Below are positions 27,459-37,822 of a stretch of DNA of 47,519 bases, one piece after another. The position numbers and the translations under genes are program-made. Each line of letters starts with the position of its first letter. Positions within the stretch are counted from its first letter, which is position 1. Origin of the DNA: Myxococcales bacterium. GTDB lineage: Bacteria > Myxococcota_A > Polyangia > Polyangiales > Polyangiaceae. Where the stretch lies: assembly GCA_012514535.1 (NCBI GenBank), contig JAAZAA010000365.1, positions 1 through 47,519 on the forward strand, read 5' to 3'. The notes beneath the pieces are model-generated. The model saw nothing but the letters and a program-made list of their open reading frames with translations, made no database searches and was not told where the DNA came from.

Positions 27459-27767
27459 ATGGTGACGCACGTCGTGTTCTTCAAGTTCGCCGACCCCGCC
27501 GACGCCGAACAGGCGCGGACCCTCCTGCTCGGAATGCAAGGGCGCATTCCCGGCCTACGACAGGTGGAGGCCGGGCTCGATTTCACCCGCAGCGCGCGAT
27601 CCTTCGATCTCGCTTTGATCACCCGTCACGACGACCGCAGCGCCCTCGACGTGTACCGCGACCACCCCGTGCATCAGGAGGTCGCGCGCTTCATCCGCGA
27701 GCGCTCCACGGCCTCCGCCGCCGTCGACTTCGTCGGGAGCGTCACCGAGCAGGGCGCCGCCGTGTGA
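27459..27767 (+). CDS. Dabb (stress-responsive A/B barrel) domain protein
   Basis: A 102-residue ferredoxin-like-fold protein of the dimeric A/B barrel type. It starts with the family pattern VTHVVFFKFADPADAEQA. It contains GMQGRIPGLRQVEAGLDF and the conserved HP motif in YRDHPVHQEVARFI, and ends in VDF. Dabb proteins are small oligomers of uncertain, sometimes catalytic, function. Length is normal. Its last 94 bases lie opposite the 3' end of the DAHP synthase gene. Confidence 0.9.
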   Translation: MVTHVVFFKFADPADAEQARTLLLGMQGRIPGLRQVEAGLDFTRSARSFDLALITRHDDRSALDVYRDHPVHQEVARFIRERSTASAAVDFVGSVTEQGAAV

Positions 27768-28804
27768 CGCACGCCATCCGCCAGCTCCCGCAGGAGCGTG
27801 GCGGTGGTGTCGAAGTCGATGCAGGCGTCCGTGACGCTCTGCCCGTACACGAGCGGTCCTCGGCCGAGATCCTGCCGCCCGGCGACCAGGTGGCTCTCCA
27901 ACATGAGTCCGGCGAGTCCCGGGAGTCCACCACGCAGGTGCTCCAGGACCGTGCGGGCGACGGCGGGCTGCCGCGTGTGATCCTTCTCCGAGTTGCCGTG
28001 GCTGCAGTCGACGATCACCGCCGACGGAACCCCCGCCGAGCGGAGCGACTCGACGGCCGCGCTCACGGAGCGCGCGTCGTAGTTGGGCCCCGAGCGCCCG
28101 CCGCGCAGCACGAGGTGGGCGCCGCCGTTGCCAGCGCTTTGGAGCACGCTCAGCTGCCCCCGCTCGTCGACGCCGAGGTGCCGGTGAGGCGCTCGTGCCG
28201 CCACCACCGCGCACACGGCCGCCTCGAAGGAGCCATCCGTGCCGTTCTTGAAGCCCACCGGGAGGGGCAAGTTGCTGGCGAGCTGCCGGTGCGGCTGGCT
28301 CTCCGTCGTGCGTGCCCCGATGGCAGCCCAGCTGAGCGTATCCACCAGGTAGGGCGCGACGAGGGGCTCCAGGAGCTCCGTCGCGAGGGGCACGCCCAGC
28401 TCCGCGAGCTCCACGAGCAGACGGCGCGTCTCCACGAGCCCGAGGACGAGATCGTCACTCCCGTCGAGGTGGGGATCGTACAAGAACCCCTTCCACCCGA
28501 GGCTGGTGCGCGGCTTCTCGAAGTAGGCGCGCATCACCAAGGACACATCGTCTCCGAGCTCCCTCTGCAAGCGGAGGAGCCGCTCTGCGTAGTCGAGGGC
28601 CGCCGCCCGGTCGTGGATGGAGCAGGGCCCGACGACGGCGACGACGGGACCGCGCTCCCCCGCCAGGCGAGCTCCGAGCCGGCGTCGCTGCTCGGAGATC
28701 CGCCGCCGCGCCTCGTCGCTCAAGGAAAACCTGGCCGAGAGCTCCGCGGGGCTGGGCAGAGTCCGGTCTCGTTCGGGTCGCAGAGGGGGAGGTGCATCGG
28801 TCAT
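27674..28804 (-). CDS. aroG: 3-deoxy-7-phosphoheptulonate (DAHP) synthase, class I
   Basis: A 376-residue enzyme that condenses PEP and erythrose-4-phosphate, the entry to aromatic amino acid synthesis. Family motifs are complete: VVGPCSIHDRAAALDYAERL, RAYFEKPRTSLGWKG, GFKNGTDGSF, VLRGGRSGPNYDARSV, DCSHGNSEKDHTRQ, MLESHLVAGRQ and YGQSVTDACI. This is the AroF/G/H-type (class Ia), normally ~350 residues. The extra 30-residue tail after LADGVR lies exactly in the stretch that overlaps the Dabb gene on the other strand. The Met start at 28804 is chosen because the reading frame upstream is interrupted by the attenuator terminator. Regulation by the aromatic leader upstream is described separately. 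Confidence 0.95.
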   Translation of the reverse strand: MTDAPPPLRPERDRTLPSPAELSARFSLSDEARRRISEQRRRLGARLAGERGPVVAVVGPCSIHDRAAALDYAERLLRLQRELGDDVSLVMRAYFEKPRTSLGWKGFLYDPHLDGSDDLVLGLVETRRLLVELAELGVPLATELLEPLVAPYLVDTLSWAAIGARTTESQPHRQLASNLPLPVGFKNGTDGSFEAAVCAVVAARAPHRHLGVDERGQLSVLQSAGNGGAHLVLRGGRSGPNYDARSVSAAVESLRSAGVPSAVIVDCSHGNSEKDHTRQPAVARTVLEHLRGGLPGLAGLMLESHLVAGRQDLGRGPLVYGQSVTDACIDFDTTATLLRELADGVRHTAAPCSVTLPTKSTAAEAVERSRMKRATS

Positions 28805-28834: not shown

Positions 28835-28870
28835 AAAAACGAAAAGCCCCTGGTCCGGGGGACCAAGGGC
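28835..28870 (-). terminator. Intrinsic terminator of the aroG attenuator
   Basis: On the minus strand, GCCCTTGGTCC pairs with GGACCAGGGGC (11 pairs with one U-G, loop CCC; 28870-28846), then TTTTCGTTTTT. It lies before the aroG start, so it would stop transcription ahead of the gene. This is the clearest U-tailed terminator in the window. Confidence 0.85.
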
Positions 28871-28959
28871 GGCTCGGAATCGACGTTCTCCTGAGCTTCA
28901 GCGGCTCCAGGCCGCTCGCGACACACGGCCGCCCTCGGTTCCCACCTTCCGGGGAAACC
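28862..28959 (-). promoter_or_regulatory. Attenuator stems (1:2 and antiterminator 2:3) upstream of aroG
   Basis: Arm 1 GGTTTCCC (28959-28952) can pair with GGGAACC (28943-28937), loop of 8 and one bulged base. Arm 2 ACCGAGGGCGGC (28939-28928) can instead pair with arm 3 GCCGCCCTTGGT (28873-28862): 12 pairs, one G-U. Arm 3 includes most of the 5' half of the terminator, so 2:3 and the terminator exclude each other. Arm 1 covers the Trp13-Phe14-Pro15 codons of the leader peptide. A ribosome stalled there would mask arm 1, free arm 2 and favour antitermination. An inner hairpin AGCGGC/GCCGCT (28916-28899) also forms. Confidence 0.8.
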
Positions 28960-28996
28960 AATAGCTAAACCGGGTAAAAAATCGCGAAGCGACCAT
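28898..28996 (-). CDS. Aromatic-rich leader peptide of the aroG attenuator
   Basis: A 32-codon open frame, too short for routine gene calling, between the promoter and the terminator. Its first half holds Phe6-Phe7, Phe10 and the run Tyr12-Trp13-Phe14, with codons TTT TTT, TTT and TAT TGG TTT. Six of nine residues from 6 to 14 are aromatic. These cover all three end products of the pathway that aroG opens. The second half (Gly/Arg-rich) encodes arm 2 in its RNA. The stop TGA lies at 28900-28898. No strong Shine-Dalgarno precedes the ATG, but the probable transcription start is only ~6 bases away. Confidence 0.85.
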   Translation of the reverse strand: MVASRFFTRFSYWFPRKVGTEGGRVSRAAWSR

Positions 28997-29008
28997 CGTC
29001 GAGCTTCG

Positions 29009-29037
29009 AGGCTAAGCCATCGCGAGCCCTCAGGCAA
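29009..29037 (-). promoter_or_regulatory. Putative promoter of the aroG leader transcript
   Basis: Minus strand: TTGCCT (29037-29032), a 17-base spacer and TAGCCT (29014-29009). The expected transcription start is near 29002, just ahead of the leader ATG at 28996. Confidence 0.55.
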
Positions 29038-29144: not shown

Positions 29145-29696
29145 TCAGTCGGGCGCCGACACGCGGACGGAGCTCACGCGCCACGTGCTCCCGTCCTTCC
29201 GGAGCGCGAAGACGACGTCCCGCTCCTCGCGCCGGTACGAGCTTCCCCCCACCTTCACTCGCCCCCGGGCCAGCGCCGCGTCGGCAGTCCGGGCCGCGTT
29301 CCGGGCGTCCGTCCGCTCGCCGCGCGCCGTCCCGTCCCCCCCTTCATCGACTCCCACCTCGATGTCGAGGGACCCGAGCGTCACGTCGAAGACGCCGAGC
29401 CCCGTCTGGACCCGGGCCGCCGCGAGCGCGAGCGCCCGCGGGCCCGAGGGGAGGCTCCCCACTTCCGGGACCTCGACGCGGACGTCGGGGGTGAGGAGCT
29501 CGTCGAAGCGCTCCTTCAGGTAATTGGCGCGGAACACGACGTTGGTCACCGGCTCCGGAGAGCTCACCGCCTCCGCCAGGGCTTCGAGCTGACCGCGGAT
29601 ACGCTCCTCGTCGCTGGGGCGGGCGAGCACCGCGTACCCCACCAGGGCCACACCCCCAGCGACCGCGAGGTACCCGAGCCAACGTCGTCGATTCAT
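29145..29696 (-). CDS. Membrane-anchored NTF2-like domain protein
   Basis: A 183-residue protein with an N-terminal hydrophobic anchor (residues 5-25, LGYLAVAGGVALVGYAVLA). The domain after it resembles NTF2/SnoaL-like folds: helix RIRGQLEALAEAVSSP, then beta-strands ending in RDVVFALRKDGSTWRVSSVRV. The fold serves many roles, so function is open. The start is the Met with AGGAAGG upstream (about 10 bases). Divergent from the coiled-coil protein at 29931. Confidence 0.75.
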   Translation of the reverse strand: MNRRRWLGYLAVAGGVALVGYAVLARPSDEERIRGQLEALAEAVSSPEPVTNVVFRANYLKERFDELLTPDVRVEVPEVGSLPSGPRALALAAARVQTGLGVFDVTLGSLDIEVGVDEGGDGTARGERTDARNAARTADAALARGRVKVGGSSYRREERDVVFALRKDGSTWRVSSVRVSAPD

Positions 29697-36744: not shown

Positions 36745-37632
36745 ATGATCGAAGCCGTCATGTTGTGGAACGAACCGAACAACCTGTCGCACTGGGATTT
36801 CGAGCTCGATCCCGACTGGTCCATCTTCTCGCGGATGGTCCACCTCGGCGGCCAGGCGATCGCCGGCGAGGCCAAGGGGCTGACCCGCGTGCTCGGGGGG
36901 ATCTCCCCGATCGATCCGGGGTTCATCCAGACGCTCCAGCGCGGGGGCGCCTTGGATCAGGTCGACGTGATCGCCGTGCACGGCTTCCCCCTCGACTGGA
37001 ACCACTGGTCGATCCACGAGTGGCCGGAGAAGCTCGACGAGATCCGCGCCGTGACGCGCCTGCCCATCTGGGTCACGGAGGTCGGGGTGTCCACCTTCGG
37101 CGCGGAGGAGGTCCAGGAGTTCGGGCTCCGCCGCAGCGCCGAGCTCTTGCTCGGCCAGGTGGAGCGCGTGCACTGGTACTCCCTCTTCGATCTCCCGAAG
37201 GCGTGGCCGGCGACGACGCGGCACCGAGAAGCCGAAGGCTCCTCGTACTATCGCCACTTCTACATGGGGCTCATCCGCGAAGACGGCACCCCGAAGCGCG
37301 CCCTGCGCCACGTCGCCGACTACACCCCGGAGCTGGGCGTGTGCCAGTGGTTCCACTTCGAAGACCCGCGGCTCGACGACGCGGTGGCCTGGCTGAAGAA
37401 GCTCGGCGTGAAGCGGCTGCGCACCGGGCTCAGCTGGTCGGACCGCCTACGCCCTGGCGCCCTCCGCTGGTTCGACCGACAGATGCAGGCGCTCGCGGAC
37501 TTCGACGTGACCTTGACCTTCTGCTTCACCCCGGACGCTTGCGGCCTGCGCCCCCACCACACGAGCCCGCCTCGCGACGTCGAGGAGTTCGCCGCTTTCT
37601 GCGCCGAGATGACGCGGCGCTACGCGCGCTGA
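36745..37632 (+). CDS. Glycoside-hydrolase-like TIM barrel, apparently circularly permuted
   Basis: A 295-residue protein of the GH-A (GH39-like) type. It begins directly with the acid/base strand MLWNEPNNLSHW (Glu10). It then has VLGGISP, VDVIAVHGFP, the nucleophile strand IWVTEVGVSTFG (Glu112), and VHWYSLFDL. After the usual end of such a domain (REDGTPKRAL) it continues with CQWFHFEDPRL, VKRLRTGLSW and VTLTFCFTPD, then a helix ending FCAEMTRRYAR. Those last pieces look like strands 1-3 and the helix that normally precedes the acid/base strand. The start is ATG 36745, preceded by GAGGGGG; an in-frame GTG at 36715 overlaps the previous stop. No signal peptide: it acts in the cytosol, so perhaps on a sugar nucleotide or lipid-linked sugar. 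Confidence 0.75.
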   Translation: MIEAVMLWNEPNNLSHWDFELDPDWSIFSRMVHLGGQAIAGEAKGLTRVLGGISPIDPGFIQTLQRGGALDQVDVIAVHGFPLDWNHWSIHEWPEKLDEIRAVTRLPIWVTEVGVSTFGAEEVQEFGLRRSAELLLGQVERVHWYSLFDLPKAWPATTRHREAEGSSYYRHFYMGLIREDGTPKRALRHVADYTPELGVCQWFHFEDPRLDDAVAWLKKLGVKRLRTGLSWSDRLRPGALRWFDRQMQALADFDVTLTFCFTPDACGLRPHHTSPPRDVEEFAAFCAEMTRRYAR

Positions 37633-37668
37633 CCCGAAATGCGCCCTCCATCGAAGCTCATATTTTCG

Positions 37669-37704
37669 TCCGCTGGTTCATCCGCTGGTTCATCCGCTGG
37701 CGAA
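37669..37704. repeat. 12-base tandem repeat upstream of the epimerase gene
   Basis: TCCGCTGGTTCA occurs at 37669 and 37681, with a third partial copy at 37693 (TCCGCTGG then diverging). It lies in the 190-base gap that splits the cluster into two transcription units. Confidence 0.8.
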
Positions 37705-37822
37705 CCTGACCTTAGGCGGACAGTCCTGGCTGCCGTCCGCCGTTGGAGGATCCACCTCTCGGCGCCGCTCCGGTCCGCTGGGGCGAACACGACCCATTGA
37801 GACCTCGGCATTGGCAAGGAAC

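Follow-up and report, generated by a model that had tools for sequence, protein, structure and literature searches.

DAHP synthase guards the way to all aromatic amino acids; according to textbooks, this step is controlled by repression and feedback inhibition. The locus described here raises the question of how else the entry into the pathway may be adjusted, since a short frame rich in aromatic codons and an intrinsic terminator lie directly in front of a DAHP synthase gene of a Myxococcales bacterium. We analysed the whole contig stretch of 47,519 nucleotides that carries this gene (hereafter the window) and compared it with related genomes. With a probability of about 0.93, we regard the leader as a ribosome-mediated transcription attenuator, which would adjust DAHP synthase expression to the availability of charged tRNA-Phe, tRNA-Tyr and tRNA-Trp. 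The control job otherwise assigned to repression and feedback inhibition apparently falls here to a leader that monitors all three products.

On the minus strand the leader as a whole spans 28996-28835, and its reading frame opens with MVASRFFTRFSYWFPRK (Table 1). The initial annotation had described a 32-codon peptide with Phe6-Phe7, Phe10 and Tyr12-Trp13-Phe14, followed by an 11-pair terminator ending in TTTTCGTTTTT, and both are present on this strand; one further aromatic codon, Trp30, lies outside the core. The antiterminator 2:3 joins ACCGAGGGCGGC (28939-28928) to GCCGCCCTTGGT (28873-28862) and comprises the 12 pairs originally claimed, but it is slightly longer because three further pairs, GGG:CCC, extend it. 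As the same annotation had pointed out, this helix and the terminator share bases: at least 9 of them are common to the antiterminator and the 5' arm of the terminator, which makes the two helices mutually exclusive. Folds of the window leader also contain the claimed hairpin 1:2 over the Trp13-Phe14-Pro codons. Apart from these elements, the first codons of the window leader (28993-28981) can pair with a region around 28924-28908, i.e. GGUCGCUUCGCGA with UCGCGAGCGGCC, and the latter lies in the additional sequence that separates arm 2 from the stop codon.

Table 1. Features of the leader and of the DAHP synthase gene in the window.
Feature	Position	Strand	Basis or remark
-35-like hexamer TTGCCT	29032..29037	-	Predicted; direct reading; 17-nt spacer to the -10 hexamer
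-10-like hexamer TAGCCT	29009..29014	-	Predicted; 12 nt 5' of the leader ATG
Leader peptide ORF, 32 codons, MVASRFFTRFSYWFPRKVGTEGGRVSRAAWSR	28898..28996 (ATG 28996 to TGA 28898)	-	
Core regulatory codons Phe6 Phe7 Thr Arg Phe10 Ser Tyr12 Trp13 Phe14	28955..28981	-	
Arm 1, pairs with arm 2, overlaps the Tyr12-Trp13-Phe14-Pro codons	28951..28961	-	Folds and covariation
Arm 2, partner of arm 1 or arm 3	28928..28946	-	Folds, duplex test, covariation
Arm 3, 3' half of the antiterminator, overlaps the 5' arm of the terminator	28858..28873	-	Duplex energy and covariation
Terminator hairpin 3:4, GCCCTTGGTCC-CCC-GGACCAGGGGC, 11 pairs, loop CCC	28846..28870	-	
U-tract TTTTCGTTTTT	28835..28845	-	Directly 3' of the terminator hairpin
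Type I DAHP synthase gene (AroF/G/H family, AroF side), ATG start	27674..28804	-	

The aromatic density of the frame is unusual. Six of nine consecutive codons in its core are aromatic, and among all frames of 10-60 codons on both strands of the 47.5-kb window it is the sole one with six aromatic residues in ten; when the intergenic region was shuffled, this density was reached in only 1 of 2000 cases. The 2:3 duplex has an energy of -34.5 kcal/mol compared to -20.9 kcal/mol with a shuffled arm 2 (p = 0.001). The stability of hairpin 1:2 showed no excess over shuffles and is ordinary for a sequence so rich in G+C. A second aromatic-rich frame of the window (37539-37709, plus strand) was considered as a leader and rejected; it overlaps a gene end and is not followed by a terminator. 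When the window and 16 related loci were searched with Rfam release 15, which includes the amino acid leader families, nothing scored above the gathering cut-off, and the sole matches had high E-values at chance level.

Much more can be learned from related genomes. Upstream regions of DAHP synthase genes were compared in 59 relatives and then in 318 genomes of the class, a kind of comparison that had been proposed together with the initial annotation, and aromatic codons and competing pairings were found to be commonly kept in front of the same DAHP synthase subfamily. The leader has thus withstood the sequence-based half of the refutation that the initial annotation had set out. Altogether, 23 loci (the window and 22 other genomes) display a short frame dense in aromatic codons that is followed first by a strong hairpin plus T-run and next by the start of the DAHP synthase gene, and a hairpin equivalent to the terminator precedes this gene in every leader-bearing relative. 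The assumption that the peptide samples all three aromatic products holds for the window as well as for the entire set: Phe, Tyr and Trp occur in 23/23 leaders, with totals of 68 Phe, 41 Tyr and 44 Trp among 561 codons. The order of these residues varies (YYWWF, NFWFFWY, VFYWFTY, FYWY, FSYWFGFW), hence the content of the leader is kept and its peptide sequence is not.

This variation bears on the reading that we consider the best of the alternatives, although improbable, namely that the peptide acts as a sequence-specific, TnaC-like arrest peptide. In that case it would respond, within the exit tunnel, to a free aromatic amino acid or a different small molecule, and not through slow decoding when charged tRNAs are scarce. 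Short motifs such as FSYWF and YWFGFW are indeed common to the leaders within some genera, as might be expected from an arrest sequence. However, across the whole set the order and identity of the aromatic residues change freely (YYWWF, NFWFFWY, VFYWFTY, FYWY), while their count stays high and all three kinds are retained. Such persistence of content with changing order is expected from codon sensing and not from a fixed arrest motif.

The geometry of the leader is conserved, too. The distance from the stop codon to arm 3 amounts to 21-29 nt in most of the 23 leaders and to 27 nt in the window, even though the window leader has, from the aromatic block to the stop codon, approximately 20 nt more than the usual 36. 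This points to selection on where the terminating ribosome stands with respect to arm 3.

Evidence for the pairing also comes from coevolution of the arms. Over the 23 leaders, the duplex between arm 2 and arm 3 was more stable than its shuffles, with a Fisher combined p of 4e-22; here as in the following, shuffle and permutation figures are not strict probabilities because the sequences are related, and this value was weakened by the inclusion of L033 and L037, in which the automatic arm finder failed. The individual duplex values of these two loci should be disregarded; complementary arms are visible in both by eye. Swapping of arms 2 and 3 between species raised the mean duplex energy from -24.4 kcal/mol for cognate arms to -20.4 kcal/mol, and the cognate value was not reached in any of 20,000 permutations. 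Furthermore, helix 2:3 keeps 81% of its pairs in an alignment of 17 sequences, more than in any of 500 shuffles or any slid version. Taken as a prediction from sequence, helix 2:3 is well supported. Helix 1:2 is likely: both sides have changed in 6 of its 8 pairs and its covariation score exceeds all 500 shuffles (alignment A1) as well as the slid controls, but its cognate arms performed no better than arms swapped between species. It thus passed one of three tests, and we grade it lower than 2:3 because of its ordinary stability and the missing cognate preference; the claim for this stem holds for fold and covariation and not for these two properties. The terminator helix exhibits little covariation beyond shuffles, because it is strongly conserved in sequence. 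Inspection by eye had suggested one more conserved hairpin, located at the stop codon of the leader, but it was rejected as not significant (Fisher p = 0.08).

In 18 of the 23 leaders the motif TANNNT occurs 6-20 nt from the leader start, compared to 2.6 expected from shuffles; in these leaders it ends 7-14 nt before the start codon, usually with TTGC at -35 spacing, and TTGC is found at the equivalent position in most of the relatives' leaders. None of the 23 leader ORFs is preceded by a convincing Shine-Dalgarno sequence (best match 4 of 6), unlike many of the downstream DAHP synthase genes, which have GGAG before their start. With a transcription start 6 or 7 bases after the -10 hexamer, the 5' untranslated part would comprise about 0-8 nt, and the leader is probably located on a near-leaderless mRNA. 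Such a start has precedents: a ribosome binding site is also missing from the leader peptides of Sinorhizobium meliloti trpL, which is found on a leaderless transcript (PMC7298713), and of Corynebacterium glutamicum ilvBNC (reference 42 in PMC4046766).

The S. meliloti case leads to another, very improbable explanation, in which the terminated leader RNA is the main product, either as a trans-acting small RNA or as the message for an active small peptide, and attenuation is secondary. The leaderless trpL RNA does this, rnTrpL being described as a trans-acting leader RNA and peTrpL as an active small peptide (PMC7298713); in our set, though, conservation is concentrated in the parts of the attenuator, while the peptide itself varies freely. 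Finally, that the terminator merely ends transcription of the gene located upstream on the same strand (stop near 29145, about 150 nt before the leader) and the leader ORF is a chance frame can practically be dismissed, because relatives with different upstream sequence retain ORF, pairing and terminator directly 5' of the DAHP synthase gene, arms 2 and 3 coevolve, and a promoter-like site precedes the ORF at a near-fixed distance.

We therefore return to attenuation by charged tRNA supply. The elements of the leader, their conservation, coevolution and geometry can be read directly from the compared DNA, whereas ribosome stalling, termination, the direction of the response and the sufficiency of one scarce amino acid are deduced by comparison. 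In the proposed mechanism, transcription would begin a few bases 5' of the leader ATG and the first ribosome would load on the near-leaderless 5' end. If any one of the three charged tRNAs runs short, the ribosome should stall in the aromatic block and cover arm 1, so that arm 2 could capture the newly made arm 3 before arm 4 exists; formation of 2:3 would block the terminator, and the DAHP synthase gene would be read. If all three charged tRNAs are plentiful, the ribosome is expected to reach the stop codon approximately 25 nt before arm 3, where 2:3 would be blocked or replaced by 1:2, 3:4 could form and the polymerase would halt at the U-tract. This standard scheme accounts for all parts of the leader.

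Equilibrium folding with ribosome masks favoured the terminator in every state for most leaders. E. coli trpL behaved likewise, its terminator having a probability of 0.96 whatever the state; hence the method cannot decide on switching and was rejected as an uninformative test. Two features of the window leader complicate its full-translation state: a ribosome that has reached the stop codon leaves arm 2 behind it on the 5' side, and the leader 5' end can pair with the region around 28924-28908 mentioned above.

The initial annotation had named the downstream gene aroG. Its product is a type I DAHP synthase (PF00793, E = 4.6e-67; TIGR00034, 408.7 bits; NF009395, 438.8 bits), but one that stands nearer to the Tyr-sensitive AroF side of the AroF/G/H family than to AroG: it scores 343.7 with the AroG equivalog model, below the cut-off of 568, and has the Tyr-sensitive enzyme 6agl as its best solved relative. 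The product fits the amino acids that the leader would sense. The gene stands alone, with the next gene downstream (PF07876) in the opposite direction. A second DAHP synthase of the same genome (contig C63) is 48% identical, scores higher with the AroG model than the window copy and is not preceded by a leader.

In a tree of 131 proteins, a quick tree with some long branches, two clearly distinct groups emerge (support 99), and all leader-bearing genes belong to the same one of them. The other group, whose 68 proteins include the second copy from the window genome and sequences from Erwinia, is devoid of leaders. The leader-bearing group also holds a number of leader-less copies from the class, hence gain or loss of the leader must have occurred repeatedly, with five changes on the tree. 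One further DAHP synthase copy among the leader-bearing ones, L132 (G261:C482), has no leader, an apparent loss after duplication.

Some observations extend beyond the class. Leaders with Phe, Tyr and Trp codons, mostly just before the stop codon, precede DAHP synthase genes of Gammaproteobacteria, mostly Pseudomonadales (L052, L053, L055, L057, L075, L080, L081, L087, L093, L094, L095, L112, L117, L123), with peptide ends such as ...GGWWAGYYFFSG and ...AAWYWFFYR. At several of these loci a hairpin pair GCTGCCT...AGGCAGC overlaps a CCCCG...CGGGG-T-run terminator, and those leaders that were searched with Rfam gave no match. DAHP synthase genes of SAR202/Dehalococcoidia Chloroflexi (L061, L069, L077, L084) are preceded by leaders such as MENKFYKHTHFYYYFSSLSQLPIKDLCKL, then a hairpin and a long T-run. 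It is a tentative and rather doubtful idea that one type I DAHP synthase subfamily of Myxococcota, Gammaproteobacteria and SAR202-type Chloroflexi carries an old, unrecognised three-aromatic attenuator, near-leaderless in myxobacteria, which replaces repressor control of the committed step.

Within the 318 genomes, a covariance model built from the leaders had no matches above 40 bits other than DAHP synthase leaders; weak matches in G192 and G219 were rejected because they resemble ordinary terminators. A search of the same genome with this model for sister attenuators gave none that is credible, and no aromatic or branched-chain leader was seen upstream of the chorismate-binding (trpE-like), prephenate dehydratase and ilvD genes of the window genome. 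In another member of the class (L218:1260-1500), an ilvD-like gene is preceded by a frame rich in branched-chain residues, MTGPTLLPIIGLVLLGAISAGCGPPR, and by a GC hairpin with TTTTTGTTTTTT; hence attenuation may control other pathways in the class as well.

How does the leader compare with known systems? E. coli pheL-pheA and trpL-trpE share with it the product codons in the leader peptide, the 1:2 / 2:3 / 3:4 logic and the intrinsic terminator. They differ in that the target here is the first common enzyme with three amino acids sampled, that the leader here has no Shine-Dalgarno sequence, and that arm 2 is located inside the reading frame before the stop codon. Sampling of several pathway products by a single leader is known from E. 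coli ilvGMEDA, there for branched-chain amino acids and a different operon. S. meliloti trpL/rnTrpL and C. glutamicum ilvBNC resemble our leaders in translation without Shine-Dalgarno sequence or from a leaderless transcript, and concern other amino acids and other genes.

The aroR leader of C. glutamicum aroF, which reportedly goes back to Neshat et al. 2014, is likewise a ribosome-mediated attenuator of a DAHP synthase gene with aromatic codons in a short leader. It contains Phe-Tyr-Phe, and according to a review its operon answers to Phe and not to Tyr (PMC11802643; PMC4046766, in which aroR is also predicted); Trp is not mentioned for AroR, whereas all 23 leaders here combine Phe, Tyr and Trp. 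The likeness is one of functional class. The uORFC-13-1 motif predicted before Acholeplasma aroF (PMC8632094) also combines a uORF containing Phe codon(s) with a terminator in front of a DAHP synthase gene, but it belongs to another lineage, has a ribosome binding site, a different structure and Phe alone noted. Putative attenuators have been listed before aroF or aroF-tyrA in Shewanella and Vibrio. A survey from 2010 stated that leader peptide systems were known till then only in Proteobacteria and Actinobacteria, before adding its own cases from Firmicutes (PMC2965389). For Myxococcota, we found no described amino-acid attenuator in the open literature, in line with the initial annotation, which knew of none. 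Hence, we are dealing with a known mechanism in a new lineage: attenuation of DAHP synthase is already established in C. glutamicum and predicted elsewhere, and the lineage is what is new here. The 23 leaders represent a natural series in which to study the weighting of three tRNAs by a single frame, and attenuation that does not rely on a Shine-Dalgarno sequence. What distinguishes the myxobacterial leader from its known counterparts is the combination of three putatively sensed amino acids with a predicted near-leaderless start.
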